DNA from: Chitinophagaceae bacterium 26-R-25
GTDB taxonomy: Bacteria > Bacteroidota > Bacteroidia > Chitinophagales > Chitinophagaceae
Reading direction: 5' to 3'
Assembly (NCBI GenBank): GCA_029906195.1
Contig: JARWSJ010000002.1
Span: 806,001-870,000, forward strand
DNA: 64,000 bases
Shown here: positions 4,021 to 64,000 of the stretch, piece after piece
Layout: each line of letters begins with the position of its first letter
How positions within the stretch are numbered: the stretch's first letter is position 1
Made by a program: the position numbers and the translations under genes
Notes under the pieces: generated by a model
Told to the model about the DNA's origin: nothing
Database searches by the model: none
Seen by the model: the letters and a program-made list of their open reading frames with translations, nothing else

Positions 4021-4156
4021 TTTTTTTACCACGGAGGAAAGGAGGTTTTTTTCACAGAGGAAAGGAGACTTACGGAATTCACTCCGTTCCCTCTGTGCTC
4101 TCGTGAGTTACACAACATCTTTTGAAGAATCTCCTTTGTGCCCTCTGTGGTTTAAA
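4021..4156. repeat. Intergenic inverted-repeat element, family A
   Basis: The left arm opens with TTTACCACGGAGG and the right arm ends CCCTCTGTGGTTTAAA, its near reverse complement. Both arms also hold AAAGGAG/CTCCTTT units. The same design recurs at 32526-32680. With the terminator at 3970 it fills most of the 315 bp gap between susD and the first GH51 gene. I saw no ORF of merit in the gap. Confidence 0.8.
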
Positions 4157-4260
4157 ATTCTTTAGTGTGTTGCACCAGCAAAATGAAGCCCATAAAATTT
4201 TATAATTGTAAAAAATACACTTATTTTAGAGCTCTAATATTTACTCGAAAAAACAACGAC

Positions 4261-5790
4261 ATGAAATTCTTGCGATTGCTATTGGGAACATGTTCCCTAT
4301 TCACATCGGGATTGCTATTTGCCCAGACAAATATCTCCGTTAACACAAGCAATTCTTCAACCGTTATCAGCAAACACATTTACGGTCATTTTGCAGAGCA
4401 CCTGGGGCATTGCATTTACGGTGGCTTTTATGTGGGAGACACAAGTAAAACAATTCCCAACACGAATGGCGTTCGCAACGATATCATTGATGCACTTCGA
4501 AAATTGAAGATCCCAAACCTTCGCTGGCCGGGCGGGTGCTTTGCAGATACCTATCATTGGAAAGACGGCGTGGGGCCAAAAAACAAACGTCCTGAAATGG
4601 TGAACAAATGGTGGGGCGGTGTTACAGAAGACAACAGTTTTGGCACACACGACTTTCTAAATATGTGTGAACTGCTTGGTGCAGAACCATACCTTGCCGG
4701 TAATGTAGGAAGCGGAACCGTACAGGAACTGGCTGATTGGGTGCAGTATGTAAACTTCGATGGCAAAAGCCCGATGAGCGATTGGCGCAAACAAAATGGA
4801 AGGGAAAAACCTTGGAACGTAAAGTTCTGGGGCGTGGGTAACGAAGCGTGGGGTTGTGGTGGAAATATGCGTCCGGAATATTATGCAGATATATACCGCA
4901 AGTACGCAACCTTCATGGGCGGCGGTTTAATGCAAATTGCATCCGGTGCAAACAGTGCAGATTATCACTGGACAGAAACATTGATGAGCCAGATTCCACT
5001 GCACATGCTGGGTGGCGTAGCGCTTCACCATTATTCAGTAATTGACTGGAACCATAAAGGCCCTGCCACTGATTTTTCTGAACAACAATATTTTGCGACG
5101 ATGAAAAGCGCATGCTTCATGGATTCTTTAGTCATCAAGCATTCGGCTATAATGGATAAATACGATCCTAAAAAGAAAGTGGCGTTGGTGGTAGATGAGT
5201 GGGGTGGATGGTACGATGTAGAAGCAGGCACCAACCCAGGATTTTTATATCAGCAAAACACCATGCGCGATGCGATGATTGCAGGCGTTACACTAAACAT
5301 CTTCAACAATCACGCGGACCGCGTACGTGTCGCAAATCTTGCGCAATGCATCAACGTATTGCAGGCCGTGATTCTTACCGATAAAGAAAAAATGATCCTT
5401 ACACCTACATACCATGTTTTGGAAATGTATAACGTGCACCAGAATGCAAAACTGTTGCCTGTTACCATCAAGACAAATGACTATGTTCTTGGTAATGATA
5501 AGCTGCAGGCGGTGTGGGCTTCAGCATCAAAAGATTCATTGGGTGCTACACACATTTCACTGGTTAACATCGACTCTAAAAAATCACAGGACATTACCGT
5601 GAATTTTGACGGGGCTCAATTTAAAACAGTAAGCGGCAGAATACTTACTTCTGCTAAACTGACTGACCACAACACCTTTGAACAACCTGAAAAATTAAAA
5701 CCTGTTGCCTTCAGCGGAGCCAATGTAAAAGGTTCTACACTGATCGTGAAATTACCTCCGTTCTCAGTGGTTGTGCTGGAACTAAAATAA
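4261..5790 (+). CDS. GH51 alpha-L-arabinofuranosidase (secreted)
   Basis: A 509-residue retaining alpha-L-arabinofuranosidase that would trim terminal arabinofuranosyl groups from arabinan or arabino-oligosaccharides. The ATG at 4261 is chosen because it starts a clean signal peptide ending FAQ. An in-frame GTG at 4165 would add an unlikely 32 residues encoded in intergenic DNA. The catalytic acid/base is E195 in GNEAWG and the nucleophile is E313 in VDEWGG, both canonical for GH51. It lacks the N-terminal binding module present in the second GH51 gene at 8360. The next gene, GH43, starts 6 bp after its stop, which implies co-transcription. No clear promoter was found upstream. Confidence 0.95.
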   Translation: MKFLRLLLGTCSLFTSGLLFAQTNISVNTSNSSTVISKHIYGHFAEHLGHCIYGGFYVGDTSKTIPNTNGVRNDIIDALRKLKIPNLRWPGGCFADTYHWKDGVGPKNKRPEMVNKWWGGVTEDNSFGTHDFLNMCELLGAEPYLAGNVGSGTVQELADWVQYVNFDGKSPMSDWRKQNGREKPWNVKFWGVGNEAWGCGGNMRPEYYADIYRKYATFMGGGLMQIASGANSADYHWTETLMSQIPLHMLGGVALHHYSVIDWNHKGPATDFSEQQYFATMKSACFMDSLVIKHSAIMDKYDPKKKVALVVDEWGGWYDVEAGTNPGFLYQQNTMRDAMIAGVTLNIFNNHADRVRVANLAQCINVLQAVILTDKEKMILTPTYHVLEMYNVHQNAKLLPVTIKTNDYVLGNDKLQAVWASASKDSLGATHISLVNIDSKKSQDITVNFDGAQFKTVSGRILTSAKLTDHNTFEQPEKLKPVAFSGANVKGSTLIVKLPPFSVVVLELK

Positions 5791-5796
5791 GACTCT

Positions 5797-6771
5797 ATGA
5801 ACAAGCGAATACTTGGCGGTATTATTTGTGGCATCTGTTCACTGCAGATGAGTGCTCAGAATAAAAAAGATACCGCGTTTATTGCGAACGGAAATCCCAT
5901 CATTCAGCACAAATACACTGCTGACCCAGCGGCGATGGTGTATCACGATACGGTCTATTTGTACACCGGTCATGATGAAGCCAAACCACCGCACGAAGGT
6001 TATGTAATGCATGAATGGCTTTGCTTTTCAACCACCGATATGGTGCATTGGAAGGAACACCCGTCGCCTATGAACACGAAAGATTTTGCCTGGGCTAAAG
6101 ACGATGCATGGGCCTCGCAGGTGATAGAGCGAAACGGAAAATTCTATTGGTACGTAGCCGTGGAGCATGGCACTATACATGGCAAGGCAATCGGTGTTGG
6201 AGTGAGTGACAAGCCAACAGGTCCTTTTAAAGATGCCCGCGGTTCTGCGCTTATCACAAACGACATGACAAAGGCCACAAATATTTCCTGGGATGATATT
6301 GACCCAACAGTAATCATCGACGACGATGGACAAGCGTATCTCATTTGGGGAAATACCAAATGTTACTACGCAAAGTTGAAAGAGAATATGACTGAGCTTG
6401 ACGGGCCCATTCAAATCATTGATCTGCCAACATACACCGAAGCCCCATGGATACACAAACGCAACGGATGGTATTACTTGTCTTACGCAACACAGTTTCC
6501 CGAAAAGATTGCGTATGCGATGAGTCGCAGCATCAACGGGCCGTGGCAGTATAAAGGAATATTAAACGAGATAGCAGGCAATAGCAATACGAATCACCAG
6601 GCGATCATTGATTTCAAAGGAAAATCATACTTCATTTATCATAACGGGGGAATTAATACGAACGGTGGAAGTTTCAGAAGATCAGTTTGTATTGACTATC
6701 TCTACTACAACAAAGATGGTACAATGAAACGTGTAGTAATGACAACAGAAGGTGTGCAACCAAAAAAGTAG
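5797..6771 (+). CDS. GH43 glycoside hydrolase (secreted)
   Basis: A 324-residue five-bladed propeller enzyme of family GH43, which contains beta-xylosidases, arabinofuranosidases and arabinanases. The signal peptide ends MSAQ. The family triad is visible: base D43 in TADPAAMVY, pKa modulator D169 in DIDPTV, and acid E215 in TEAPWI. Substrate cannot be read from these residues; an exo-acting arabinofuranosidase or xylosidase fits the locus. It lies 6 bp after the GH51 gene and 6 bp before the next GH43 gene, so all three look co-transcribed. No carbohydrate-binding module is attached. Confidence 0.92.
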   Translation: MNKRILGGIICGICSLQMSAQNKKDTAFIANGNPIIQHKYTADPAAMVYHDTVYLYTGHDEAKPPHEGYVMHEWLCFSTTDMVHWKEHPSPMNTKDFAWAKDDAWASQVIERNGKFYWYVAVEHGTIHGKAIGVGVSDKPTGPFKDARGSALITNDMTKATNISWDDIDPTVIIDDDGQAYLIWGNTKCYYAKLKENMTELDGPIQIIDLPTYTEAPWIHKRNGWYYLSYATQFPEKIAYAMSRSINGPWQYKGILNEIAGNSNTNHQAIIDFKGKSYFIYHNGGINTNGGSFRRSVCIDYLYYNKDGTMKRVVMTTEGVQPKK

Positions 6772-6777
6772 AAAACA

Positions 6778-8274: not shown

Positions 8275-8314
8275 CGTGAATGGTGGATATGAATCGGGAA
8301 TCTTCGAACGTCAC

Positions 8315-8346
8315 AATTCTTAATTCCTAATTCCTAATTCTTAATT
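8315..8346. repeat. Family C repeat arm (TTCCTAA units)
   Basis: Four tandem near-copies of TTCCTAA/TTCTTAA lie just upstream of the second GH51 gene. The stretch at 8277-8300 (GTGAATGG, GAATCGGGAATC) loosely resembles family G. No full reverse-complement arm is visible here. Confidence 0.75.
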
Positions 8347-8359
8347 GACAACATATATT

Positions 8360-10394: not shown

Positions 10395-10540
10395 TGAGAG
10401 AAAGCACACAGATGACACAGATTGGACTGATTTACACTGATATTTTGATCATGTAAAAAACATAAAATGAGATTTATCTCATTCATAAATTATCTGCTTC
10501 ATCTTAACCTATCATCAGGATCTTAAAAATCTGCGTTCTT
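10395..10540. repeat. Degenerate intergenic repeat, family H-like
   Basis: The right end reads ATCTTAAAAATCTGCGTTC, matching the family H arms at 37251-37295 and 46329-46390. The left end has ACACAGATGACACAGATT, a weak counterpart. The arms are much less perfect than in the other members. It fills the gap between the second GH51 and third GH43 genes. Confidence 0.5.
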
Positions 10541-10543
10541 ATT

Positions 10544-11515: not shown

Positions 11516-11620
11516 TTTTTCTACCACTAAGGCACTAAGTGCACTGAGCTCCACTAAGGGGTCGCTGAAATTAAAATCATTCTTAGTGAAACTTAGTGTA
11601 CTTAGTGGCTTAGTGGTAAA
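11516..11620. repeat. Intergenic inverted-repeat element, family B
   Basis: The left arm holds CTACCACTAAGGCACTAAG and the right arm holds ACTTAGTGGCTTAGTGGTA. The arms are about 80 percent reverse-complementary over some 30 bp, with a loop of about 35 bp. The element begins at the stop codon of the GH43 gene. Related arms occur at 42205-42298 and 51651-51701. Confidence 0.85.
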
Positions 11621-11811: not shown

Positions 11812-12153
11812 ATGAAAAAGATGCTCCTGATCCTGGCGATCCTTATTACTGCTACTGGTTTCAAAGCGAAAGCGCAAGACGAAAGCCCAGCTAAAACTCC
11901 AAAATGGATATCTGATAAAGGCTATTGGGTTCTCGAAGACAACAAAAAAGGAAATTCATTTTCCGTTATCAACTTTTATAACAATGACAATCAACTCGTT
12001 TACAGGGAAAAATTGATCGGCACCTCATTAAACATCAATAAGAAGAAAACGCTGATGAAGCTGAAAGATGCCCTTGAAGCATCCATCGTAGCGTGGGAAG
12101 AAAATCATACGCTGAGAGAAAACGAAGCCATCGTAGCCAAAGTAATGCAGTAG
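11812..12153 (+). CDS. Small secreted protein of unknown function
   Basis: A 113-residue protein with a clear signal peptide ending KAQ near residue 22. The mature part is short and charged, with TPKWISDKGYWVLEDN and a helical C-terminal segment (MKLKDALEASIVAWEEN). I recognise no family. A TAACTTTA sequence at 11761-11768, one base off the Bacteroidota -7 consensus, is a candidate promoter. The stop codon TAG overlaps the first base pairs of a family K palindrome. The LytS/LytTR pair follows 200 bp downstream, but nothing ties the genes functionally. Confidence 0.7.
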   Translation: MKKMLLILAILITATGFKAKAQDESPAKTPKWISDKGYWVLEDNKKGNSFSVINFYNNDNQLVYREKLIGTSLNINKKKTLMKLKDALEASIVAWEENHTLRENEAIVAKVMQ

Positions 12154-12232
12154 AGACAAGGCACCGCCTTGTCTTCGCCCGTCCCCGAATTCAGATGCAT
12201 ACAGAGACAAGGCAATGCAATGCCTTGTCTGT
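12152..12232. repeat. Two tandem hairpins, family K
   Basis: Two adjacent palindromes share the stem GACAAGGC/GCCTTGTC: one at 12154-12174 with a 3-base loop, one at 12202-12232 extended by ACAGA/TGT. The first overlaps the stop codon of the small secreted gene. They are the same design as the pair at 40230-40348. Confidence 0.8.
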
Positions 12233-12351
12233 ACGGAGCCTAAGATTTTCTGTATACGAAAAACGAATTTTCGTCGCTAATCAGATATACCGGGTTTTCA
12301 AACGCTGAACAATTTTGTAACTTAGTAAGCGGGGCATAAATCCTTGTTGTC

Positions 12352-13487: not shown

Positions 13488-14222
13488 ATGAGTGACCCAA
13501 ATGTGATAAAATGCCTGGTGATAGATGACGAGCCGCCTGCCCGCAGCATACTAAAAAACTACATTGAAGCTATGCCGGCATTGAAGTGGGTAGGAGAGTG
13601 TGGCAATGCCATTCAGGCACTGTCGTACCTGCAGCAAAACGAAGTTCACTTGATCTTTCTCGATATAAGGATGCCGCAGCTAAGTGGCATTGACTTTCTT
13701 AAAACACTTAAAAATCCTCCTGCTGTAATTTTTACAACTGCTTATTCAGATTACGCCATTCAAAGTTATGATCTTGATGCGCTTGATTATTTATTGAAGC
13801 CCATACAGTTTGAGAGATTCATAAAGGCGATCAATAAAGTGCTGTACGCAAAAGGAAACAAGCAATTGCCTGAAGCGGCTGCAAATACAGATACTCCGGC
13901 TGTTACGGAAAGTTTTGTATACTTCCGCGCTGATAGGAAAATGGTCAAAGTGATGCTGCGGGATATTCATTATATCGAAAGCATGAAAGATTATGTAAAG
14001 GTCTTTACGGGCAGCGGTACCATCGTAACGCGTCAATCCATCATCTCACTCGAAGCCATGTTGCCCGGCAATTTGTTTCTGCGCACACATCGCTCCTTCA
14101 TCGTCTCCCTCGAAAAGATCCGCTCCTTCACCAACGAAGTCATCGAAATAGATAAGTCAGAAATACCGGTGGGGAAGTTGTATAGGAATAATGTGATGAA
14201 AATACTAGAAATTAGAAATTAG
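13488..14222 (+). CDS. LytTR-family DNA-binding response regulator
   Basis: A 244-residue partner of the preceding kinase. ATG 13488 lies 2 bp after the kinase stop. An in-frame GTG at 13482 would overlap that stop and is the alternative. The receiver domain has the acidic pair DDE near the N-terminus and the phospho-aspartate in FLDIRMP. Thr and Lys of the receiver fold lie in FTTAYSD and YLLKPIQF. The C-terminal LytTR domain covers roughly residues 140-240 (YFRADRKMVKV, FLRTHRSFIVSL). Its last residues EIRN and the stop codon are encoded by the family C arm that begins at 14206. Confidence 0.94.
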   Translation: MSDPNVIKCLVIDDEPPARSILKNYIEAMPALKWVGECGNAIQALSYLQQNEVHLIFLDIRMPQLSGIDFLKTLKNPPAVIFTTAYSDYAIQSYDLDALDYLLKPIQFERFIKAINKVLYAKGNKQLPEAAANTDTPAVTESFVYFRADRKMVKVMLRDIHYIESMKDYVKVFTGSGTIVTRQSIISLEAMLPGNLFLRTHRSFIVSLEKIRSFTNEVIEIDKSEIPVGKLYRNNVMKILEIRN

Positions 14223-14330
14223 GAGTTAGGAGTTAGAGTTGGGTGGCTCACAAGCTTCTTACAAAGCTTTTCTACGAGAAAGACTAAGCGCAAGAATTCT
14301 AATTCCTAACTCCTGATTCCTAATTCCTTC
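14206..14330. repeat. Intergenic inverted-repeat element, family C, between convergent genes
   Basis: The left arm (14206-14238) is GAAATTAG/GAGTTAG units and the right arm (14295-14329) is CTAATTCC/CTAACTCC units. They are strong reverse complements with a loop of about 55 bp. Each arm contains the stop codon of one flanking convergent gene, so both proteins end in Arg-Asn-stop. Confidence 0.9.
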
Positions 14331-15710: not shown

Positions 15711-16178
15711 ATGGGTAAAATACTGTTTATGAAATGTAAGCTTCTATGGTCATTGTTATTGTTGATTGTTATTTCTGTTGTTTCGTTTAACGCAAACGCA
15801 CAGCAAAAAAGCAACACAAATGAATATTTTACTATCGAAAACTACTATAAGGTAAAATGGGGCTCTGCCGGCGAGTTCATCGATCTGTGGAAGAAAAATC
15901 ACTATCCTTTATTAAAGAAGGCAATGGAAAAAGGAGACATCATCAGCGTGACCGCATATGCTCCCATGCTGCATTCTGGTGAAGATACAAGATGGGATTT
16001 TCGTGTAACGATTGTATTTAAAAATGCAGCACTCGCTTTCGCAGAAGATCTTCTCGATCCATACAAAAAGCAGTTATATCCTGACCAGGATAAGCTAAAG
16101 AAAGAAGAACAACACAGGTTTGAATTGCTGCTTTCTCATTGGGATGTGATGGTTGAGCAATTAATAATTAATAATTAA
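15711..16178 (+). CDS. Secreted protein of unknown function
   Basis: A 155-residue protein with a long hydrophobic signal peptide ending ANAQ; the ATG at 15729 is the alternative start. The mature region contains YYKVKWGSAGEFIDLWKK and a charged C-terminal half, and could be an alpha/beta-barrel-like fold, but I cannot assign a family. A GAACTTTG sequence about 40 bp upstream resembles a -7 box with one mismatch. The last residues LIINN and the stop are encoded by the family M repeat. It is convergent with the VIT-family gene. Confidence 0.7.
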   Translation: MGKILFMKCKLLWSLLLLIVISVVSFNANAQQKSNTNEYFTIENYYKVKWGSAGEFIDLWKKNHYPLLKKAMEKGDIISVTAYAPMLHSGEDTRWDFRVTIVFKNAALAFAEDLLDPYKKQLYPDQDKLKKEEQHRFELLLSHWDVMVEQLIINN

Positions 16179-16303
16179 TAAAGAATAATTTATAGGGCAT
16201 CAGTCGTTTTTAATCGCAACTTCAAAACTCTCAAATTACATGGGGCCAATATTTTTAACAGATTGCAACACCTATTAATTGTTAATTATTAATTATTAAT
16301 TAC
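16159..16303. repeat. Intergenic inverted-repeat element, family M, between convergent genes
   Basis: Left arm: three AATTAAT/AATAATT units at 16159-16183. Right arm: four TTAATTA units at 16273-16303. The loop is about 90 bp and otherwise featureless. Each arm reaches into a stop codon: 16176-16178 on the plus strand and 16303-16305 on the minus strand. Confidence 0.85.
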
Positions 16304-17007
16304 TACGATTGAATCAATCTCGCAATACCAAACGCACAACCCGCAGCAAGGGCTCCGATAACGGTTACACGCAATGCCCCGCCCCAGGCATTTACACCGG
16401 TAATTTTACTTTTAAAGAAACCGAAGGCAAATAAACAGATGAGCGTAACAACTGCGGAAATTTTTAGCGCTTGCAAAGGCGTATCGATAAAGAAGTAAGG
16501 CAACAATGGAACAATGCCGCCCGCGACGTAAGAAAGGCCAATATTGAAAGCGCTGTTCCTTGCTCTTTTAGGATCTGGTTTGTCAAGGCCAAGTTCGTAC
16601 TTCATCATAAAGTCAACCCACTTTTCTTTATCTTTCGTCATCTCTTCAACCGCTTGCTCTTGCACCTCCTCACTAAGGCCAAGATTCGCAAAGAACTCTT
16701 TTACTTCCGCTTTTTCTTTGTGGGGAACCGTTTCCACCTCTTCATGCTCACGTTTCAACTCGGAGTTGTAATGATCGATTTCTGTTTTGCCTGCGAGGTA
16801 ACCGCCAAGTCCCATCGCGATGGAACCTGCCGCAATCTCAGCCAAACCTGCAATCACAATTAAGTGCGTAGAAGAAACAGCGCCACTCAAACCCGCTGCC
16901 AATGCGAATGGAACAGTAAGACCATCGCTCATTCCAATAACGATATCTGTAAGTATATCCGAACTCTGAAGATGTAATTCTTTGTGTTGGTGGTCGTGAT
17001 GCTCCAT
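16303..17007 (-). CDS. VIT1/CCC1-family Fe/Mn transporter
   Basis: A 234-residue integral membrane protein of the vacuolar-iron-transporter family, which exports Fe2+ or Mn2+ from the cytosol. The N-terminus is His-rich (MEHHDHQHKE). The first two membrane helices contain IGMSDGLTVPFALAAGLSG and AGSIAMGLGGYLAG, typical of the family. A long charged helical segment between about residues 85 and 145 matches the cytosolic metal-binding domain of VIT proteins. Three more hydrophobic segments follow. Direction and metal are inferred from the family. Nothing nearby suggests iron regulation. Confidence 0.9.
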   Translation of the reverse strand: MEHHDHQHKELHLQSSDILTDIVIGMSDGLTVPFALAAGLSGAVSSTHLIVIAGLAEIAAGSIAMGLGGYLAGKTEIDHYNSELKREHEEVETVPHKEKAEVKEFFANLGLSEEVQEQAVEEMTKDKEKWVDFMMKYELGLDKPDPKRARNSAFNIGLSYVAGGIVPLLPYFFIDTPLQALKISAVVTLICLFAFGFFKSKITGVNAWGGALRVTVIGALAAGCAFGIARLIQS

Positions 17008-17020: not shown

Positions 17021-17175
17021 ATTGAATTATTGAATCATCGAGTAGCTCATTAACTGAATAACTGATTAACTGAATAACTGAACTTGAAAATTGACCTTTC
17101 ATCAATAATTCAATTATTCAATAATTCAACGCCTCAGTTAATCAGTTATTCAGTTAATCAGTTATTCAGTTATTA
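17021..17175. repeat. Interleaved inverted-repeat element, family F
   Basis: Two arm pairs are interleaved in the order A-B-A'-B'. A (ATTGAATTATTGAAT, 17021-17035) pairs with A' (ATTCAATTATTCAATAATTC, about 17107-17126). B (TAACTGAATAACTGATTAA region, 17050-17082) pairs with B' (17133-17175). B' runs into the stop codon of rocD. The topology is pseudoknot-like instead of a simple hairpin. Confidence 0.85.
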
Positions 17176-18628: not shown

Positions 18629-19360
18629 AAGTTGTTAGTAGTTAGTTATTGGTTGTTAGCCACGACTTGGTGCTATGCAACGCCTGTTAGACCTTGTTCA
18701 TGATTTTGTCTGTCTACGATTGTCCAAATGGTATCGTCGTACAATAATTTAGTACTGTCAATATCAGTAGCTTTAAACGCTAATATTTTTGTTTTTCCAC
18801 GAAAGGATTTGAATAGAAATCGTATCTCGCTGATTTTATCATTTTCAAAGAGAGTAGAAGTGGTCGTTAGATAGCCAACTACAGGCTCGTCTTTTTTTAG
18901 GATACACGTATTGTTAAGAAAAGACGATTCTGAAATATTCAATCTTCTTTGCTTATTTTCTAACGTAAAAAAGAGCTGTCTTAGATTTATAGAAGAATTA
19001 TGTGTCCATCCGTTTTTCTCAAATCTAATATCAATATCGACGTCTTTTAAGTTAAAGGTATGATTTACAGAAACGACACTTAATTTAAACAGATATAGAG
19101 ATTTAGGTTCACCGCGAAATTCGCCAACGTTGTCATATTGGCTTACCAATTTACCTACTATTCGTGCTGGAGCAAGTTTTTCATATAAAAAAGGAGTCCA
19201 TGCCGCAATTACACCTAACAATGTGAAAAGAAGAGAAAGATCCATACCGTTTTTTTTGAAAATATATAGCCTGAATGCCTTATTGATTAGCAAGATCGCG
19301 AGAGCGAAATTGATGCAGATATATCGCTCACCAGTTTCTTTTCTATCAACCAACAACTCC
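18629..19360. repeat. Family L inverted repeats enclosing one gene
   Basis: The left arm GTTGTTAGTAGTTAGTTATT (18631-18650, continuing to 18661) and the right arm CTATCAACCAACAACTCCC (19342-19360) are approximate reverse complements. They flank the hypothetical gene at 18673-19245. The right arm abuts the stop codon of queD. The same arrangement, with a different gene inside, occurs at 52883-53201. Confidence 0.6.
18673..19245 (-). CDS. Hypothetical membrane-anchored protein
   Basis: A 190-residue protein I do not recognise. The ATG at 19245 is chosen because it starts an N-terminal membrane anchor (LSLLFTLLGVIAAWTPFLYE); the upstream extension of the frame has no supporting features. The rest is beta-rich, with VSVNHTFNLKDVDIDIRFE and KISEIRFLFKSF. 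It could face the cytosol from a single anchor. The gene is more AT-rich than its neighbours and sits alone between two family L arms, which suggests later acquisition (inference). Confidence 0.65.
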   Translation of the reverse strand: MDLSLLFTLLGVIAAWTPFLYEKLAPARIVGKLVSQYDNVGEFRGEPKSLYLFKLSVVSVNHTFNLKDVDIDIRFEKNGWTHNSSINLRQLFFTLENKQRRLNISESSFLNNTCILKKDEPVVGYLTTTSTLFENDKISEIRFLFKSFRGKTKILAFKATDIDSTKLLYDDTIWTIVDRQNHEQGLTGVA

Positions 19361-19745: not shown

Positions 19746-19870
19746 CAAAATTTGAAAATGTGTTAATTTGAAAATTTGAAAATTGAGGAGCCTGACTGCT
19801 CAATTTCCCCTCAGAGAAACGCACGGAAAGCATTTTCAAATTAGCACATCTTCAAATTTTCAAATTATTG
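19746..19870. repeat. Intergenic inverted-repeat element, family E
   Basis: The left arm (19746-19787) has AATTTGAAAATGTG and AATTTGAAAATTTGAAAA units. The right arm (19831-19870) is its reverse complement, ending in the stop codon of the flavin-reductase-like gene. The order of the distinctive ATGTG-TTAA segment is conserved in both arms. Confidence 0.85.
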
Positions 19871-21745: not shown

Positions 21746-21875
21746 TTAGGAATTAGGAATTAGAAATTAGGAAGCAGAAGAGTGAATTAAGAATTAGCAA
21801 TCAGGAATTAAGAATTCTGCAAAGTGCGATCACTCAAACAATTCTAATTCCTAATTTCTAATTCCTAATTCCTGC
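21746..21875. repeat. Intergenic inverted-repeat element, family C
   Basis: The left arm (21746-21777) is AATTAGG units, with a second degenerate set at 21784-21819. The right arm (21841-21875) is TTCTAATTCC units and touches the hmgA stop codon. The loop is about 60 bp. Confidence 0.9.
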
Positions 21876-23032: not shown

Positions 23033-23060
23033 GGCAAACAAGTTATGAGTTATGAATTAA

Positions 23061-23180
23061 GTAAAAAGTAAAAAATAAAAAGGAAAAACGGTGCTAACAT
23101 TATTTTGACTGTTCAATTCTTCTTAAAAATACTCAACGCGACAGTGTTACAATTTTTTGACTTTTTCTTTTTACTTATCC
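23061..23180. repeat. Intergenic inverted-repeat element, family I
   Basis: Left arm GTAAAAAGTAAAAAATAAAA (from 23061) and right arm GACTTTTTCTTTTTACTT (23159-23176) are reverse complements. It lies between hmgA and hppD. Confidence 0.75.
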
Positions 23181-27012: not shown

Positions 27013-27017
27013 TATTT

Positions 27018-27193
27018 AATTGAAAATTGAAAGTTGAAAGTTGAAAATTGAAAAGGAAGGTCAGGCAGAATTTATTATTTAGATGATTGTCAGGATTTGG
27101 CATCTCAAATCAGAAGATCATAACAAATCATGACGTTCATAGAAATCAGTGCTCTCATTTTCAACTTTCAACTTTCCATTTTCAATTAATTTA
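27018..27193. repeat. Intergenic inverted-repeat element, family D
   Basis: The left arm (27018-27056) is TTGAAAA/AGTTGAA units and the right arm (27156-27193) TTTTCAA/CTTTCAA units; loop about 100 bp. The right arm runs up to the stop codon at 27191. Confidence 0.9.
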
Positions 27194-27881: not shown

Positions 27882-28030
27882 GAATTGAAAATTGAAAATT
27901 GAAAGTTGAAAATGAGCCCAGGCTAAGAAAACTTATCGATATATGTGAACATTTTTAGGCAAAAAAAATGGAAAACGGGAACTATTGTCATTCCATTTTC
28001 CATTTTCAACTTTCAATTTTCAATTATTTA
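27882..28030. repeat. Intergenic inverted-repeat element, family D
   Basis: Left arm 27882-27914 (AATTGAAAATTGAAAATTG start) and right arm 27989-28030 (CATTTTCAACTTTCAATTTT inside) are reverse complements with a loop of about 75 bp. The right arm ends in the etfA stop codon. Confidence 0.9.
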
Positions 28031-28990: not shown

Positions 28991-28996
28991 GGAGTT

Positions 28997-29152
28997 AATT
29001 TGAAAATTTGAAAATTAGATAATTTGAAAATGGGAGAACCGATTTGAAAATTTGAGAATTTGAAGATTTGAAGATTGCTTGTGATCGACTGGTCTGATTG
29101 AACTTCGGCGATCGCCATTTTCAAATTTTCAAATTGCCACATTTTCAAATTA
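28997..29152. repeat. Intergenic inverted-repeat element, family E, inside etfBA
   Basis: Left arm: seven or more ATTTGAAAA-type units at 28997-29075. Right arm: ATTTTCAAATTTTCAAATTG-type units at 29115-29152, running into the etfB stop codon. It interrupts what would otherwise be a tight two-gene operon. Confidence 0.9.
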
Positions 29153-29893
29153 AATAGCTTTTGCTTCATCGTGGAGCAGTCTTACCAATTCTTCTGCCTG
29201 ATCAGCAGGAACTAGTTTAACCCCTGATTTCGCAGGAGGTAATTCAAAACCTACAACACTTGTAAGATTGTCTACTGCAACAGGTTCTACCACTTTCAAC
29301 GGTTTTGTACGTGCCGCCATGATACCGCGCATGTTCGGAATGCGGGCTTCAGCCATGCCTTTCTGGCAGCTAACTACCAAAGGCAATTGTACTTCGTTGA
29401 TTTCTTCACCACCTTCAATTTCACGTGTGATGGTGGCAGTTGTACCGTTCAAATCAAATTTTGTAGCAAGGGCAACATAAGGAAGATCGAGCAATTCTGC
29501 TACCAATCCACCGATTGAAGACCCGTTATAATCAATTGTTTCTTTACCTGTAAACACAAGGTCGTAGGCACCTTGTTTGGCAACTTCTGCAATTTGCGAT
29601 GCGATGTAAAAACTGTCGTGGTTATCGGCATTTACACGAATGGCTTCATCGCCACCCAATGCAAGGGCCTTGCGGATGATGGGTTCAGCATCTGCACCAC
29701 CTACTGTTACAAGGTGAAGCGTAATGGAACTGTCTTTTTCTTTTAGTTCAAGGGCGCGAACCAAAGCATACCATTCATCATAGGGATTGATGATCCATTG
29801 CACACCATCCTGTGCAAATTTCGTGTTGTTATCGCTGAAGGCTATTTTTGCCGTAGTATCCGGCGTCTTACTAACGCAAACTAAAATCTTCAT
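29150..29893 (-). CDS. etfB: Electron transfer flavoprotein subunit beta
   Basis: A 247-residue AMP-binding subunit of ETF. It starts MKILVCVSKTPDTTAKI, typical of the family. GKETIDYNGSSIGGLVAELL and the recognition-loop region around MAEARIPNMRG are present. A good promoter lies 46-74 bp upstream. The TPR gene is divergent. Its last codons (AKAI) lie just before the family E repeat. Confidence 0.96.
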   Translation of the reverse strand: MKILVCVSKTPDTTAKIAFSDNNTKFAQDGVQWIINPYDEWYALVRALELKEKDSSITLHLVTVGGADAEPIIRKALALGGDEAIRVNADNHDSFYIASQIAEVAKQGAYDLVFTGKETIDYNGSSIGGLVAELLDLPYVALATKFDLNGTTATITREIEGGEEINEVQLPLVVSCQKGMAEARIPNMRGIMAARTKPLKVVEPVAVDNLTSVVGFELPPAKSGVKLVPADQAEELVRLLHDEAKAI

Positions 29894-32525: not shown

Positions 32526-32680
32526 TTTTTTTACCACAGAGGTAGCAGAGGTTTTTTCACAGAGAAAAGGAGGTTTGTGAAACACTCTTTTCTTGTCTAT
32601 CCTTTCGTTATCGGCTGTGTATTTCCAGCATTTCTCCTTCACTCTGTGAAGAAAGCTCCTTACCTCCGTGGTAAAAAAAA
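32526..32680. repeat. Intergenic inverted-repeat element, family A
   Basis: Left arm 32526-32573 (TTTACCACAGAGG start) and right arm 32631-32680 (ACCTCCGTGGTAAA end) are about 80 percent reverse-complementary over 48 bp, with a 57 bp loop. A family B-like fragment (CTAAAGCACTAAATTTTACT) precedes it at 32501-32520. It lies between convergent tilS and the porin-like gene. Confidence 0.88.
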
Positions 32681-35481: not shown

Positions 35482-35584
35482 CGTGAATGGTGAAACGTGA
35501 ATCGTGAATTGGGATTCTCTGTTTGAAAACCATTCCGGCCATTCAGGAACAGATTATTCACGATTGAAGATTCACGTTTCACGC
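35482..35584. repeat. Intergenic inverted-repeat element, family G
   Basis: Left arm GTGAATGGTGAAACGTGAAT (from 35483) and right arm ATTCACGTTTCACGC (ending 35584), with an inner ATTCACGATT copy, are reverse complements; loop about 45 bp. Unlike most elements it lies between divergent genes (lipoprotein and proS). A second copy is at 54474-54543. Confidence 0.85.
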
Positions 35585-37089: not shown

Positions 37090-37094
37090 AAGAC

Positions 37095-37295
37095 AGGAAC
37101 GCAGATTTTCAAGATTATGATGATTTGTTATGATTTTGTTTTGAGTCGCACAAATTGATGACAGGATATTTCTAACCATTATATTAAAAAAGGAACGTAG
37201 ATTAAAAAGATCTTTGCTGGTTTATAAGATTTTTTATGCTGCTTATTTTTAAGATCATGATAATCATCAAAATCTTGAGAATCTGCGTTCTTTCT
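37095..37295. repeat. Intergenic inverted-repeat element, family H
   Basis: Left arm 37095-37137 starts AGGAACGCAGATTTTCAAGA and right arm 37251-37295 contains AATCTTGAGAATCTGCGTTC. A third partial copy (AGGAACGTAGATT) lies at 37191-37203. Arms match those at 46251-46390 closely. It fills the gap between proS and rlmH. Confidence 0.85.
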
Positions 37296-37305
37296 CATCG
37301 CAACT

Positions 37306-37784: not shown

Positions 37785-37957
37785 AAGTCAAAAGGCAAAA
37801 TTAAAAAGTAAAAAAGATGGAACTCTTTATGGGTTTGCTTTTGAATTTTTACTTTTTACTTCTTACTTTTTTAAATAGTTTTAGTGAAAATGTGTTGTGG
37901 TGCATCTTTACTTACACAACTGTTTTTACTTTTGATTTTTACTTTTTATTTTTTACA
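37785..37957. repeat. Intergenic inverted-repeat element, family I
   Basis: Left arm AAAATTAAAAAGTAAAAAAG (37797-37816). Right arms at 37840-37874 (AATTTTTACTTTTTACTTC) and again at 37922-37957. The second right arm ends 4 bp before the rhomboid ATG. Confidence 0.75.
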
Positions 37958-38612: not shown

Positions 38613-38789
38613 GAAGTTGTTAGTTGATAGGGAAGTTGCCAGTGGCCGGTTTCCGGTGGCCTGTAGTTGAAATTCAAAATTTGTTTTGAAATAGAAGACT
38701 GCCACAATTCTTAGAAAAATTGTGCACCAAAACACTGGCATCTGGTAACTGGCTACCGGCAACCAAATACTAACAACTAACAACCCTAC
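38609..38789. repeat. Intergenic inverted-repeat element, family L, between convergent genes
   Basis: Left arm 38609-38659 includes GTTGTTAGTTGATAGGG and GCCAGTGGCCGG. Right arm 38733-38789 includes ACTGGCATCTGG and ACTAACAACTAACAACCC. The order is the reverse complement. The loop contains a CACAATT/AATTGTG hairpin. The right arm ends in the stop codon of the GH1 gene. Here no gene lies between the arms. Confidence 0.85.
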
Positions 38790-40141: not shown

Positions 40142-40229
40142 GTCTTCACTAAGGTTTTGATTTTACATTATCATAAAATCGTAAAGAACAATGTACGAAA
40201 GAAGTATGAACATATTGTTATGTTTTCCG

Positions 40230-40348
40230 TAGAGACGCTTTGAAAGCGTCTCTTGCTGCATCATTTTGATGGTGTTTTCTTGTAGCAATTGCGATATTAG
40301 ATCGCACACGCTGTATGTTTTAGAGAGACGCATTTAATGCGTCTCTAC
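40230..40348. repeat. Paired hairpins, family K
   Basis: GAGACGCTT/AAGCGTCTC at 40232-40252 and AGAGACGCATT/AATGCGTCTCT at 40324-40346 are two tight palindromes about 70 bp apart. The second contains the stop codon of the downstream-strand MORN gene at its centre. Confidence 0.88.
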
Positions 40349-42125: not shown

Positions 42126-42160
42126 AGAAATTAGGAATTAGGAATTAGGAATTAGAAACC
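42123..42160. repeat. Family C repeat arm overlapping the miaA start
   Basis: Five AATTAGG/AATTAGA units in tandem. On the minus strand they run directly into the first codons of miaA. Only a weak complementary CCTGATTC segment follows at 42177-42184. Confidence 0.85.
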
Positions 42161-42204
42161 AGGAATATTTCGGATGCCTGATTCTTTTTGATTTAGGAGA
42201 GGTT

Positions 42205-42298
42205 TTGACACTAAGTTTCTTTAAGTGAATCCCTTAGTGAAACTTAGTGTCCTTAGTGTCCGCCCGGATGAATCCATTCGGACAAGCCTTAGTGGTAA
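42205..42298. repeat. Intergenic repeat, family B
   Basis: GACACTAAGTTTC at 42207-42219 is reverse-complementary to GAAACTTAGTGTC at 42238-42250. Further right, CTTAGTGTC and CTTAGTGG units enclose a GTCCG/CGGAC hairpin (42258-42283). It separates miaA from the pRiA4b-type gene. Confidence 0.8.
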
Positions 42299-42892: not shown

Positions 42893-42976
42893 GATTTCTA
42901 AAAATTAATTCAATATCAATAAATCGTTCGTTTGCGTGCCCAAAATAAAACAAAATAGTGAAAAGCAGAATGGTAA

Positions 42977-43098
42977 ATGCTTAATGCTTAATGCCGAACG
43001 CTTAACGCTCAACGCAGAACTTCGTGTGTTCTTTGCGTTCTGCGTTAAGCTTTAAGCGTTAAGCGTTTTGCGTTCCGCGTTCTGCATTCAGCGTTATA
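42977..43098. repeat. Large inverted-repeat element, family J
   Basis: Left arm 42977-43025 is built from GCTTAATG/GCTTAACGC and CAACGCAGAAC units. Right arm 43027-43098 repeats GCGTTCTGCGTTAAGC and TTAAGCGTTAAGCG units. The arms nearly touch, so almost the whole element can fold on itself. The right arm reaches about 40 bp into the cca coding region. Confidence 0.9.
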
Positions 43099-44514: not shown

Positions 44515-44520
44515 AATTTA

Positions 44521-44661
44521 ATTGAGAATTGAAAATTGAAAGTTGAAAATGCGTCGCTGTTTAAGGGTTCTCCTTATCTGTCGTACCGAAAACAACCCTT
44601 TTATTATTAGTCTTCTGGAAATAAAAGCATTTTCAATTTTCAATTTTCAATTTTCAACTCC
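44521..44661. repeat. Intergenic inverted-repeat element, family D
   Basis: Left arm 44521-44551 (GAATTGAAAATTGAAAGTTG inside) and right arm 44627-44661 (TTTTCAATTTTCAATTTTC inside) are reverse complements; loop about 75 bp. The right arm encodes the last residues of the GT9 gene. Confidence 0.9.
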
Positions 44662-46250: not shown

Positions 46251-46390
46251 GGAACGCAGATTTTCATGATTGTCATGATTTTTAAGATTTTTTGATTTGA
46301 GATTTGAAATCAAATCAGTTGCTAACCTTAAATCTCCGATCTCAGATTTTAATCATGTCAAATCATGACAATCATGAAAATCTGCGTTCC
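46251..46390. repeat. Long inverted-repeat element, family H
   Basis: Left arm 46251-46314 starts GGAACGCAGATTTTCATGAT and right arm 46329-46390 ends ATCATGAAAATCTGCGTTCC. Most positions pair across 60 bp, with a 14 bp loop. This is the most perfect element in the window, with arms shared with 37095-37295. Confidence 0.92.
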
Positions 46391-51607: not shown

Positions 51608-51701
51608 TTATTTGAACATTCAAATAAGAGCGATTAAGCCTCGTATTTAGCTTAGTGAAACTTAGTGTCCTCCGTGCCTTAGTGGTAAACTCTGGGTCTT
51701 A
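51608..51701. repeat. Hairpin plus family B repeat arm between convergent genes
   Basis: TTATTTGAA/TTCAAATAA (51608-51627) is a perfect 9-bp palindrome with a 2-base loop. It is followed by CTTAGTGAAACTTAGTGTCC and CTTAGTGGTAAA units (51651-51690), the right-arm type of family B. The segment runs to the stop codon of the methyltransferase gene. No left arm of family B is present. Confidence 0.75.
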
Positions 51702-52878: not shown

Positions 52879-53073
52879 TCAAGTTGTTTGTTGTTCGTTG
52901 ATAGTTGTTAGTAGTTGCTTTGATTGTTCGGCAGAAATTGTTTCCCCGTTCAGCGATTGTTGTAGCCCCTTTTTAACTTTTTCAAGAAAAACAATCTTGT
53001 CGACCAATTGATCTAAGGTAAACTTTTCTGGGAGCTGCTCAATTATACGTAAAACTTCTTCTTTTATTAGCAT
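52879..53073 (-). CDS. Small antitoxin-like protein without a visible toxin
   Basis: A 64-residue protein: EEVLRIIEQLPEKFTLDQLV and DKIVFLEKVKKGL form two charged helices, then SLNGETISAEQSKQLL. The layout resembles antitoxins of RelBE-like Bacteroidota modules, but no toxin gene follows; the methyltransferase gene starts 1 bp after its stop. The tail TTINEQQTT is encoded by a family L arm. I infer an antitoxin remnant or a stand-alone regulator. It lies entirely between the two family L arms. Confidence 0.6.
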   Translation of the reverse strand: MLIKEEVLRIIEQLPEKFTLDQLVDKIVFLEKVKKGLQQSLNGETISAEQSKQLLTTINEQQTT

Positions 53074-53201
53074 ACAAAGTCTTTAATGAACTTCCGGATA
53101 AAATTAAGGCAGGACAAATAAACTATCTTATTTGTCCTGCCTTTTATGTTGACGATAGTGAATTATTTCTAACAACTATCAACTAACAACCAACAACTGT
53201 T
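52883..53201. repeat. Family L inverted repeats enclosing a small gene
   Basis: Left arm 52883-52918 has GTTCGTTGATAGTTGTTAG and right arm 53171-53201 has CTAACAACTATCAACTAAC, clear reverse complements. They bracket the 64-codon gene and a terminator hairpin. The left arm encodes that gene's C-terminus. Confidence 0.8.
53106..53143 (-). terminator. Intrinsic terminator downstream of odhB
   Basis: AAGGCAGGACAAATAA and TTATTTGTCCTGCCTT make a perfect 16-bp stem with a 6-base loop. Short T-tracts on both sides could let it work in either direction. It lies about 60 bp past odhB and just upstream of the 64-codon gene. Confidence 0.85.
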
Positions 53202-54473: not shown

Positions 54474-54543
54474 GCGTGAATGGTGAAACGTGAATCGTGA
54501 ATAGTAAGAACCGAATTGACGATTGACCATTCACGATTGCCGA
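54474..54543. repeat. Intergenic inverted-repeat element, family G, between sucA and odhB
   Basis: Left arm GCGTGAATGGTGAAACGTGA (54474-54493) plus ATCGTGAAT, and right arm GACGATTGACCATTCACGATT (in 54519-54539), are reverse complements with a short loop. Closely similar to 35482-35584. The right arm ends 4 bp from the sucA stop. Confidence 0.82.
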
Positions 54544-58625: not shown

Positions 58626-58740
58626 ATCAATTTTTTGTTTGTCGTTAGCCAAAATAAAGATTTAGATCGTTTTAATATGCTTTCAATAAAACGTAAGTTG
58701 CTGATAATTAGGAGGAAGTTGACGGTTTGTTAGCTATAAC

Positions 58741-62500: not shown

Positions 62501-62580
62501 AAATCACTCCGGAAATGCAGGGTGTTATTTCAAATGATACCAACGCTAAAGCGGGTGCACAAACTAAAGATTCTAAATAA
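59521..62580 (+). CDS. DUF2723 polytopic membrane protein (probable glycosyltransferase)
   Basis: A 1019-residue protein. ATG 59521 is chosen because the -7 box lies at 59489, downstream of an in-frame GTG at 59473. The N-terminal DUF2723 domain has about ten membrane helices; its motif TASLWDCGEFISSVFKMQIP and HPPGAPLFVMLGRL resemble the acidic first loop of GT-C glycosyltransferases. The soluble C-terminal half includes YGDNDTYPLWYAQ and RDYAYAGSFYAYAFWIGLG. Transfer of a sugar from a lipid donor outside the membrane is inferred. A terminator follows. Confidence 0.88.
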   Translation: MTFNKVNNIVGWIVCAVACAVYLMTMEATASLWDCGEFISSVFKMQIPHPPGAPLFVMLGRLFVVVFGGSNPAKAVNIMSALCSGFTILFLFWSITHFARKIFLKGAAELNAQQLFITMSAGVVGALAYTFSDSFWFSAVEGEVYAMSSLFTALVFWAMLKWEHSADEPNSDKWILFIFFMMGLSIGVHLLGLLTIPAIVMIYYFKRYNATPWGTFWAFLIGCAVTGFVQLVVIQYSVKWAGMFDIWFVNGFRLPFFSGFVFFFVLLAVVFFVLLRYASKKNYTFLRLGIWCFIFMLLGYSSYLTTMIRSNANPAVDMYNVDNPNSLVGYLGRDQYGDFPLLYGQVFTATPTDYKETSMKYTKGKDKYEEIGKDVKPVYSSDDMMLFPRVWDASNDQGHAQFYKDWLGLDQNEKPTMANNINFFIGYQVNWMYLRYFMWNFAGRQNDIEGFAPGNVRDGNWISGISFIDNMRLGDQSTLPDSIKNNKANNKLFFLPLILGLIGAYFQYKKDRKDFLVVGLLFFFTGLAIVLYLNQAGNQPRERDYAYAGSFYAYAFWIGLGVMQVAEWLNRKMALSSSNYVAAGLCFLAVPVIMGNQEWDDHDRSKKVLARDLAKDYLESCPPNAILFTYGDNDTYPLWYAQEVEHIRPDIRVINNSLLGIDWYINQLRYKVNESDPIDVILTPEQIQGRNRDYIVYNPQKNVNPSNYYDLYDVMKNVVGSDDPNMQVQMQGGDRLNVMPTKKFRVPADEAVVRANGTVNPTDTVTDLMIDIPEAKNYIMKNDIAILNIIAANKWKRPVCFTAAYSAQELGFGNFVRKDGLTYRLVPVKNNSGVNVDWMVDKLMNKFGFGSADIKGVYFDETNRLHLNTIRMAYAEAAAAAADQGNKDIAKKVLDKADKGILEENMPYAMVSSNNRHNYFTFKFLEACYKAGYKELADHVSKALHKDFDQQMSYYRNLSDGRQESMRQEIAGAQQLSQMLQMLDAQYNNGNAPKITPEMQGVISNDTNAKAGAQTKDSK

Positions 62581-62624
62581 TGGCACAATAATGTGATACA
62601 GAACATGAACTGGTTCTGTTAATG

Positions 62625-62661
62625 AAAACGCTTCGCACTTGTGCGGAGCGTTTTTGTTTTT
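62625..62661 (+). terminator. Intrinsic terminator of the DUF2723 gene
   Basis: AAAACGCTTCGCAC and GTGCGGAGCGTTTT pair over 14 bp with one mismatch and a TT loop, followed by TGTTTTT. It starts 45 bp past the stop. Confidence 0.9.
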
Positions 62662-62745
62662 CAACCAAACTGATTGTAAATTGTTACTGAATAAGGTAAA
62701 AGTCGAAATTAGAAATTCAAATAAGTGGCCGTTACGCGGCAACCA

Positions 62746-62833
62746 TTTTTTACTTTTTACTTTTTATTTTTTACTTGTTAAAAAGATAACTCAGAGGAAA
62801 TCCTTTTTACTTTTTGATTTTTTACTTTTAATT
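62746..62833. repeat. Family I repeats, two arms in direct orientation
   Basis: ACTTTTTACTTTTTATTTTT (62752-62771) and TTTTTACTTTTTGATTTTTT (62803-62822) are direct copies, not inverted. A short GTAAAAGTC at 62695-62703 may be the missing opposite arm. With the terminator at 62625 this accounts for most of the 308 bp gap before the VWA gene. Confidence 0.7.
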
Positions 62834-62888
62834 TAATCCCAATGTTCTTTAATTATAAATCGTAAATTGTATCAAGGGAGGAAAGTTT

Positions 62889-63986
62889 ATGAAGGGATAT
62901 TTATTTAGTGGCTTCGACCCGAACGAACAAGGCAAATCTGCTTTTGAAAAACTTCTTGAAATTTTTATGCAGCTTCTTACTTATACCAACGGTGACGTAG
63001 GAGAAGCTTTGCAATGGCTCAATCAACTTGATAGAGAATACCAGATCACTGATGATGATTATGGCATGGGGGATTTTGTGGACGAGCTGAAAGACAAAGG
63101 TTACATTGATGAAAACAAACAAACGGGTGAAATAAAGATCACACCTAAAACAGAACGCGGCATTCGCAAAAGATCATTGGAAGAGATCTTCGGTAAGCTA
63201 AAAAAAACAAAGCAGGGAAATCACAACACATTCAAGCCGGGGCTGGGAGATGAGCAAAACCCGGAAACAAGACCGTTTCGCTTTGGTGATATGCTGGAGC
63301 AAATTGATTTTACGGAGTCCATCAGAAACGCGCAGATCAACCACGGCGTGGAAAGTTTTTCGATGAAGGAAGATGATTTGCAAATCCGTGAGACTGATTT
63401 CAAAGCGCAGACATCTACGGTACTGATGATTGATATTTCGCACTCAATGGTTTTGTATGGAGAAGATCGCATTACTCCTGCCAAGAAAGTGGCGATGGCA
63501 TTGAGCGAATTGATCACAACGAAATACCCAAAAGACACTTTAGACATTGTTGTGTTTGGGAACGATGCATGGCCGGTGGAAATCAAGGATCTTCCTTATC
63601 TACAGGTTGGTCCATACCATACGAACACAGTGGCAGGATTGGAACTCGCAATGGATTTGCTGCGCAGAAGAAGAAATCCGAACAAGCAAATTTTTATGAT
63701 AACAGATGGAAAGCCTACTTGTCTTAAAATTGGCAAACGTTATTATAAAAACAGTTTTGGTTTGGACAGGCGAATTACAAACCGTTGCCTCAATCTTGCA
63801 GCGCAATGTAAGAAACTGAAAATTCCTATTACAACATTTATGATCGCAAGCGACCCTTACCTGCAGCGATTTGTAAATGAGTTTACAGAAACCAATAACG
63901 GTAAGGCTTTCTTTGCATCGCTCGATCACTTGGGCGCATTTATTTTTAAAGATTTTGAAAGTGGTAAAAGAAAAACAGTTTATTAA
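62889..63986 (+). CDS. VWA-domain protein
   Basis: A 365-residue cytosolic protein. Residues 1-110 are helical. A linker leads to a von Willebrand A domain starting near residue 175, with the metal site DISHSM in place of the usual DxSGS, plus GEDRITPAKKVAMALSELI and FMITDGKPTCLKIG. Proteins like this often work with MoxR-type AAA ATPases; none is in view, but one could lie to the right. A strong Shine-Dalgarno-like GGGAGGAAAG (62877-62886) precedes the ATG, rare for Bacteroidota and unlike its neighbours. A family C arm begins right after the stop. Confidence 0.88.
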   Translation: MKGYLFSGFDPNEQGKSAFEKLLEIFMQLLTYTNGDVGEALQWLNQLDREYQITDDDYGMGDFVDELKDKGYIDENKQTGEIKITPKTERGIRKRSLEEIFGKLKKTKQGNHNTFKPGLGDEQNPETRPFRFGDMLEQIDFTESIRNAQINHGVESFSMKEDDLQIRETDFKAQTSTVLMIDISHSMVLYGEDRITPAKKVAMALSELITTKYPKDTLDIVVFGNDAWPVEIKDLPYLQVGPYHTNTVAGLELAMDLLRRRRNPNKQIFMITDGKPTCLKIGKRYYKNSFGLDRRITNRCLNLAAQCKKLKIPITTFMIASDPYLQRFVNEFTETNNGKAFFASLDHLGAFIFKDFESGKRKTVY

Positions 63987-64000
63987 TTAAGAATTAGGAA
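63987..64000. repeat. Start of a family C repeat arm, cut by the window edge
   Basis: TTAAGAATTAGGAA begins right after the VWA stop codon and runs off the right edge. Confidence 0.6.

Follow-up and report, generated by a model that had tools for sequence, protein, structure and literature searches.

Tandem-unit quasipalindromes behind stop codons in Chitinophagaceae bacterium 26-R-25: inherited sites with rewritten sequences

Introduction

The short tandemly repeated repetitive (STRR) sequences of cyanobacteria are intergenic heptanucleotide tandem repeats arranged as direct arrays; to our knowledge, no inverted-arm architecture is known for them. Here, we describe a population of intergenic elements whose tandem units, many of them also heptamers, build inverted arms instead. 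The elements were found in a 64,000-nt stretch of DNA (the window; G000:C2:806001-870000, contig JARWSJ010000002.1) from the 6.5-Mb genome of Chitinophagaceae bacterium 26-R-25 (the host genome, G000) and were compared with two genomes of the same genus, G001 and G002. The nearest named relative found was Pinibacter aurantiacus MAH-26, with 99% identity for the one protein compared.

Repetitive extragenic palindromic (REP) sequences and REPINs are short inverted pairs in gene gaps, and the GTAG ends of REPs often give the neighboring open reading frame a TAG stop, as reported in PMC3733652. The present elements share the short inverted pairs and the location; however, their arms consist of tandem units with a 7-10-nt period, without a tag and without a core hairpin, and no linked transposase was found. 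The TAACTGA repeats are intergenic, contain stops in all three frames and are patchily distributed in Bacteroidetes with other heptamers mixed in (MacGregor 2015, PMC4679880). According to the same source, one Beggiatoaceae genome holds 169 direct-repeat sets and one indirect set, most of them just before start codons, and some sets in a Microcystis sample lie between stop codons; horizontal transfer was proposed, with no mechanism given. Our family F3 includes the same word, and the stops and intergenic location are also shared. Compared with the TAACTGA repeats as described there, the F3 arms are inverted, the spacing is 8 nt, the elements lie behind stops (68 of 79 in co-directional gaps being nearer the upstream stop), and F3 is one family of many; in addition, site persistence and turnover were measured here.

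BrickBuilt, a miniature inverted-repeat transposable element (MITE) of Porphyromonas gingivalis, is described as one family of 23-nt units with small inverted ends, with 19 copies in ATCC 33277 located 49-591 nt from genes (PMC4596501). It resembles the present elements as an intergenic minisatellite with inverted ends in a member of the Bacteroidota, but its 23-nt unit with leader and tail, as given in that paper, was not found in the present elements. Only one 23-nt Tandem Repeats Finder row was obtained (4023-4067, two copies), the element units otherwise being 7-10 nt. Finally, template switching at quasipalindromes is reported to homogenize arms (PMC7202029, PMC8604942) and, between inverted repeats, can invert the spacer (PMC8604942). 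Both outcomes were observed here, although these reports treat the process as a source of mutation and do not make it the driver of a repeat population that extends over a genome. Our search of the literature, which did not include most subscription journals, found no description of many-family elements with inverted heptamer arms.

Results

Occurrence and Architecture

Gaps were defined as intergenic regions of at least 30 bp between genes predicted by a simple in-house caller, which resulted in 46 gaps in the window; gaps longer than 2,000 bp were excluded (longer than approximately 1,500 bp in the pair scan of the genome sample and in the arm classification). An arm of a defined family was present in 29 of the 46 gaps, 27 with tandem-unit families and two with REP-type sequences only (12150-12234 and 40325-40348). 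Both arms of one family were found in 18 gaps (17 tandem-unit, one REP). Five sets of dinucleotide-preserving shuffles of the window gaps contained no family, and ungapped inverted pairs with a score of at least 14 numbered 19 in the real window versus 0.2 per shuffled set. Inverted pairs with a score of at least 20 occurred in 12 of the 46 gaps of the window and, across 20 evenly spaced 20-kb stretches of the host genome, in 67 of 244, against none in three shuffles per gap and none in 316 kb of coding sequence. Extrapolated from these 67 strong pairs per 400 kb, the genome would contain roughly 1,000 elements.

A preliminary description of the window had counted about thirty elements with units of 7-9 nt in nearly every non-operonic gap, and had proposed the comparison with shuffled intergenic sequence as a check. 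The number agrees with the 29 gaps found, the arm pairs lie far above the shuffles, and the unit lengths of 7, 8 and about 9-10 nt were recovered. The claim on their distribution was too strong, as 17 of the 46 gaps, 7 of them divergent, harbored no element. The elements it saw are real, but their position at stop codons, their persistence at sites and the true REPs mixed among them had been overlooked.

The arms measure approximately 20-60 nt and are built of units of 7, 8 or 9-10 nt. We classified 16 tandem-unit families, some of them related dialects, with one common architecture. The units are AATTGAA (F1), AATTTGAA (F2), TAACTGAA (F3, which includes the word TAACTGA, yet has a period of 8), AATTAGG (F4), AAAAGTA (F5), AGTTGTT (F6), AATTAAT (F7), GAACGCAGATTTTCATGATTGTCATGAT (F8, also written GAACGCAGATTTTCATGAT), GCACACGGATGACACGGATT (F9, also ACACAGATG), CACTAAGGA (F10, also CACTAAGG), CACAGAGG / AAAGGAGG (F11), CGTGAAT (F12), GCGTTAA (F13) and the dialect GAGTTGA (F16). 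The purine fraction of the inward-read strand exceeded 0.50 in 15 of the 16 families, a count that includes families of one or two members as well as related dialects; F6 reached 0.47, and F8 and F13 just 0.51.

Position at Stop Codons

The 79 elements in co-directional gaps, counted over all tandem-unit and unclassified families, were concentrated behind genes: 68 were closer to the upstream stop and 10 to the downstream start, with a median distance of 5 nt from the stop. The 30 elements in convergent gaps lay at a median of 3.5 nt from either stop, and 18 elements were located in divergent gaps. Density peaked in convergent gaps (30 in 16.1 kb, versus 79 in 71.5 kb of co-directional and 18 in 37.1 kb of divergent gaps). 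When REPs were also counted, 96 of 158 stop-side views were within 10 nt of the stop. In 31 of 73 cases, the stop of the gene itself shared the phase of the unit, whereas the stop density of the units that follow would predict 10.5. This stop can switch along with the element: at site 134, TGA with F1 in the host genome corresponds to TAA with F2 in G001. At site 238, a REP supplies the TAG stop in both relatives. The elements fill the space from the stop codon to the next promoter and often provide the stop themselves.

An all-frame stop cassette was considered as a general rule and rejected: inward stops were more numerous in 88 elements, fewer in 16 and tied in 23. The excess was carried by F1, F2, F3, F6, F7, F9 and a few small families; F4 tied, and F5, F8 and F10 were slightly opposite. 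Because the effect is confined to some families, stop content was retained only as a permissive property.

Site Persistence and Family Turnover

Synteny was compared over 400 kb, with occupancy scored by family profile unless strict pairs are stated. Among 213 gaps compared between the host genome and G001, 146 were occupied in both, 8 in the host genome only, 1 in G001 only and 58 in neither (Fisher P approximately 4e-42). The comparison with G002 covered 186 gaps, of which 116 were occupied in both, 21 in the host genome only, 2 in G002 only and 47 in neither. Forty gaps without an element, each 100 bp or longer (9.8 kb in total; 23 co-directional, 16 divergent and 1 convergent), were empty in both the host genome and G001.

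The families at these sites were less stable. No family was shared at 34 of the 146 co-occupied sites in G001 and at 27 of the 116 in G002. The check in related species that the preliminary description had suggested yielded sites that stay occupied, often with other families. From 111 sites filled in all three species, 73 shared a family throughout, each of the three lineages was the odd one at 9, all three differed at 7, and 4 were mixed; two of the 111 fell outside all further classes shown.

The nine sites discordant between the host genome and G001 were read singly. Two were spurious or ancestral REP matches, two were gene replacements, one was a deletion in the host genome (site 223), one was a REP gain, one was a swap to an undefined family, one was a decayed F16 site, and at most one had gained a tandem-unit fragment. 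None of these nine sites showed a clean gain of a tandem-unit element, save possibly one F13 fragment. As a separate observation on REPs, the entire R4 pair is absent from site 148 of G002 with short flanks retained, a possible clean empty REP site.

Arms, Loops and Dialects

The two arms of an element change together. In G001, 38 same-family orthologous elements that still pair in both species provided 1,089 positions, which resulted in 36 paired double changes, 88 one-arm changes, 5 other changes and 960 unchanged positions; by our own arithmetic, independent arms predict approximately 2 paired double changes. In G002, 21 such elements with 567 positions gave 12 paired double changes, 62 one-arm changes, 4 other changes and 489 unchanged positions.

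Loops can invert in place. With family sequence masked, 108 orthologous loop pairs comprised 5 matching in inverted orientation only, 36 collinear and 67 neither, where 0.2 inverted pairs were expected; the non-orthologous control gave 24 inverted and 13 collinear matches among 11,809 pairs. The arms also disperse without their loops. Only 1 of 596 same-family loop pairs was related (14 of the pairs being REPs; 109 of 143 loops, those of at least 30 nt, were used with family sequence masked), although the exact F1 23-mer has 199 copies in the host genome and 86 in G002.

Dialects replace one another at retained sites. F16 was found at 16 sites in G001, 14 of which carry F1 in the host genome (5 of these are F1 in G002 too), against a background of F1 at 32 of 154 occupied host sites. 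An F16 21-mer with an odd inner unit has 63 copies in G001, 15 in the host genome and 3 in G002. The commonest swap was F1/F16 in G001 (11 cases) and F4/F7 in G002 (5 cases). Site 97 has F1 in both arms in the host genome and F16 in both arms in G001, with the central hairpin conserved, and at site 25 a lone array was altered in place. Elements can also be nested, F8 lying within F1 at 8 of 9 F1 loci in a sample picked by resemblance to such an element; REPs were likewise found within F1 loops.

REPs and Y1 Genes

True REPs (GTAGAGACAAGGC and others) coexist with the tandem-unit elements in the same gaps as a separate class, of which R1, R2 and R5 end in GTAG. The genome encodes a 206-aa Y1/RAYT-like frame (RAYT, REP-associated tyrosine transposase; L002:1176-1866, G000:C1:2605487) flanked by inverted GCAAGGCTTGTAGCC palindromes, designated REP R6, which also occur elsewhere in the genome (L130). 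An F8 element adjoins this open frame on one side only, and the other two Y1 loci scanned (L210 and L213) had no F arm pair. Beside CCTACGGAGC-type palindromes at L001 (G000:C1:1715468) lies a disrupted Y1 gene of the IS200-like type, with several stop codons or frame changes.

Distribution Outside the Host Genome

The F8 19-mer was found only in the host genome among 198 sampled Bacteroidota genomes (0 of the 197 others), and an expectation of F8 across phyla was not borne out by this sample. Among 98 genomes of the family, F8 occurred in 2 same-genus genomes; within these samples, F8 is confined to the genus. The F1 23-mer occurred in three other genera with 13, 4 and 1 copies, and in one such genome (G256) a single match from five F1 stretches belongs to a strong inverted pair. 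In that genome, near position 7767 of L223, a single long cluster is made of alternating F1 and AATGTGC-type units. One other genus contained 24 overlapping matches of the F3 25-mer at seven places; in the stretches taken from there, the strong inverted pairs are built of AATGTGAT and not of F3.

A scan of the Chitinophagaceae restricted to the 68 of 80 loci with at least 9 kb resulted in elements at 13 of 68 loci and 19 of 676 gaps, P. aurantiacus itself contributing 1 locus and 4 gaps. In small samples from eleven genomes, 0-19% of gaps were loaded, the 19% being REP-like palindromes in G004. The load outside the genus is low. Other genera of the family showed a like architecture with different units (AATTGTC, GTATGGAA and AGTCTGGAGTTAGG; AATGTGATAATTTGAT and AGGTGTTAGGTATC), and several elements of the AATGTGATAATTTGAT/AGGTGTTAGGTATC set were within approximately 13 nt of a stop. 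Additionally, G005 has one F5-like element in reversed orientation, with CTTTTGAATTTTTACTTTTG reading inwards (one of L191-L193). Plasmids had no match for F8 or F10 and, for F9, one unconvincing 31-nt match to a Bacteroides plasmid gene; viral contigs had no match for the F10 pattern and one exact F8 19-mer.

Elements of the Window

From the left end of the window, an F11 arm with a degenerate partner (4023-4150; another family in G001 and G002) is followed by a lone F4 arm on the minus strand (8315-8346) and a chimera with an F9 (ACACAGATG) left arm and an F8 right arm (10404-10538), which in G002 has F4 on the left and F9 on the right. Further along are an F10 (CACTAAGG) inverted pair (11522-11620), the REPIN-like GTAGAGACAAGGC REP pair of the separate class (12150-12234), an F4 pair that fills a convergent gap with both gene ends within its arms (14207-14328) and an F7 pair with the stop of the upstream gene in its arm (16159-16305). 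The F3 element at 17023-17174, built of 8-nt units, has perfect 31-nt arms interleaved with TGAATTAT-type arms, and G002 has a 9-nt unit there. A lone F6 arm on the plus strand (18630-18659) and an F2 pair (19747-19866) precede an F4 pair (21748-21873) and an F5 pair (23059-23176), whose orthologous sites in G002 carry F7 and a GAGTTAT-type unit, respectively.

The F1 pair at 27016-27189 contains a nested F8 remnant, and both relatives have the REP pair R1 at this site; a second F1 pair with an unrelated loop is located at 27883-28026. Next come an F2 pair with inner copies (28995-29153), an F11 pair (32526-32679), an F12 pair (35482-35582), an F8 (GAACGCAGATTTTCATGAT) pair (37096-37290) and an F5 pair (37785-37953). 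F6 arms at 38615-38784 surround a nested CCGGTAGCCAGT inverted pair (38637-38760), and this inner pair is absent from G001 and G002. Copies of the REP-type R2 (GTAGAGACGC) occupy 40229-40348; an F4 arm followed by an F10 arm (42129-42258), an F13 pair (42962-43095), an F1 pair replaced by the dialect F16 in G001 (44518-44657) and an F8 pair with perfect 31-nt arms (46251-46390) come after them. The remaining elements are a lone F10 arm on the minus strand (51651-51689), an F6 pair with a 257-nt loop (52882-53198), an F12 arm with a degenerate partner (54475-54543) and F5 arms on the minus strand (62745-62829).

The gap at 37090-37305, which holds the F8 pair, is occupied in G001 and G002 by an extra small open frame with repeats on both sides (F2 elements in G001) that is missing in the host genome. 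The repeats may thus help gene gain or loss.

Discussion

Tandem-unit quasipalindromes are densely present at the stop codons of this genome. Their sites are inherited while their sequences are rewritten, and they are neither plain REPs nor one MITE. The changed letters at sites retained in the relatives suggest copying and rewriting in place and not the insertion of a jumping gene. We favor, as the probable explanation, that these minisatellite-armed intergenic elements evolve by template switching at hairpins, that is, a concerted evolution of dispersed palindromes. In such a process, replication would stall at a hairpin and the nascent strand would switch template. A switch inside one arm would alter the unit number, a switch between arms would leave matching arms and might flip the loop, and a switch between loci would write the arm of a more abundant dialect over a hairpin already present. 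Units containing stops would make the landing of an arm on a gene end harmless, and the lack of a detectable SbcD might also be permissive; SbcD is half of a nuclease that cuts palindromes. For swaps between unlike families, a second process of insertion plus decay would be added. Template switching was one of three sources proposed in the preliminary description, and it fits best, given the arm coupling, the dialect change with retention of the core and the loop inversion. The accompanying idea of one generating process, as opposed to one repeat that spread, also held: 16 families have one architecture, other genera do likewise, and families swap at the same site.

Several results weigh against this explanation. 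Template switching, notably copying between loci, was deduced from the pattern, with no event observed directly, and the arm comparison covered only those elements whose arms have remained paired in both species. In many swaps, the two families are unlike (e.g., F13/F3 and F1/R1), F1/F16 and F4/F7 accounting for 13 of 32 family pairs among the 16 commonest swap types in G001. Swaps between unlike families are hard to explain by homology-driven conversion; they require that a new hairpin enters an old one, which then decays, and nesting was indeed observed. Strict inverted pairs were less conserved than profiles: with G001 (n = 214), 68 were present in both, 25 in the host genome only, 24 in G001 only and 97 in neither, and with G002 (n = 186), the counts were 40, 42, 19 and 85, respectively. 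Intact palindromes therefore appear and vanish where the family sequence persists. Fifteen sites filled in the host genome and G001 had no G002 profile match, some being other dialects, some deletions and some possible gains, and the occupancy of the other genomes is underestimated because the families were mostly defined on the host genome. Co-occupancy could also arise from saturation of all dispensable gaps. As for SbcD, the model gave no match in the host genome and exceeded the cut-off in 2 of 19 relatives, a cut-off that only 8 of 14 control genomes passed (13 match at E 0.001); since this lack is common to relatives with few elements, it is at most permissive.

The strongest alternative, which we nevertheless regard as rather unlikely, is that one or more unknown mobile hairpin elements insert randomly and that dispensable gaps are saturated, so that newcomers land in old elements and look like swaps. 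The nesting of F8 in F1 in the similarity-chosen sample, the REPs in F1 loops, the inner pair at 38637-38760 missing from both relatives and the many swaps pairing unlike families all count in its favor. However, 595 of 596 same-family loop pairs are unrelated, similar dialects are favored in swaps, arms are replaced around a conserved core, and the discordant sites show at most the F13 fragment as a tandem-unit gain.

Selection for RNA structure, in which the elements would act as bidirectional terminators or as hairpins at mRNA 3' ends and compensatory change would maintain the arms, is improbable. The location behind stop codons, the coevolving arms and the peak of density in convergent gaps are in line with it. 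In the co-directional gaps of the three genomes, however, sense-strand mismatches were 86 G-T and 85 A-C (38 and 45 in the first set), and the 3:1 ratio assumed for selected helices was rejected (P approximately 4e-12). Because the two counts are equal, selection for RNA hairpins, another source offered in the preliminary description, is not supported. The elements showed the features of neither a structured RNA family nor a wobble-tolerant helix, and Rfam gave no match within the window. Moreover, orthologous sites differ in family, and selection for pairing alone gives no reason for dialect replacement. The elements are probably not RNA helices under selection.

Slightly more improbable still is that the elements are REPs or REPINs moved by a RAYT (Y1) transposase, the third source that had been proposed. 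Such a gene is indeed present, the 206-aa frame lying between inverted palindromes, and GTAG-tagged REP pairs share gaps with the tandem-unit elements, with which they also swap. Nevertheless, both flanks of the open frame are its own REP R6 and not an F family, and the tandem-unit arms have neither an outer GTAG or CGTC tag nor a small hairpin. The number of Y1 matches was also unrelated to load in small samples, G012 and G016 having 9 matches each and the sole 20-kb stretch of G012 being without an inverted pair.

The elements are highly unlikely to be MITEs derived from insertion sequences, one or several, whose terminal inverted repeats carry tandem subrepeats. The inverted arms, intergenic location and many copies would suit this reading, but the arm families are many and a conserved interior is lacking (1 of 596 loop pairs related, which also speaks against all elements being copies of one MITE, a possibility the preliminary description had named as contrary to its view). 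Plasmids gave no convincing match for F8, F9 or F10, and viral contigs none for the F10 pattern and one for F8. At the sites read, no target duplication was noticed; none of these sites offered a tandem-unit element with a clean filled and a clean empty state.

Concerted evolution by template switching may be taken a step further, to a reading that we offer tentatively and would not call likely: a transposase-free replicator within the genome without a fixed sequence, whose palindromic minisatellite arms spread by writing over other hairpins where these stand, while dialects compete for the inherited sites. If true, this would be like the concerted evolution of satellites, yet dispersed over about 1,000 positions that follow bacterial stop codons. 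The common shape of bacterial gap repeats with many different sequences would thereby be explained. The three close species would provide a natural system for counting palindrome correction, loop inversion and conversion between loci. There is also a warning here that, in such genomes, the repeat and not the gene often sets the 3' end of the gene.

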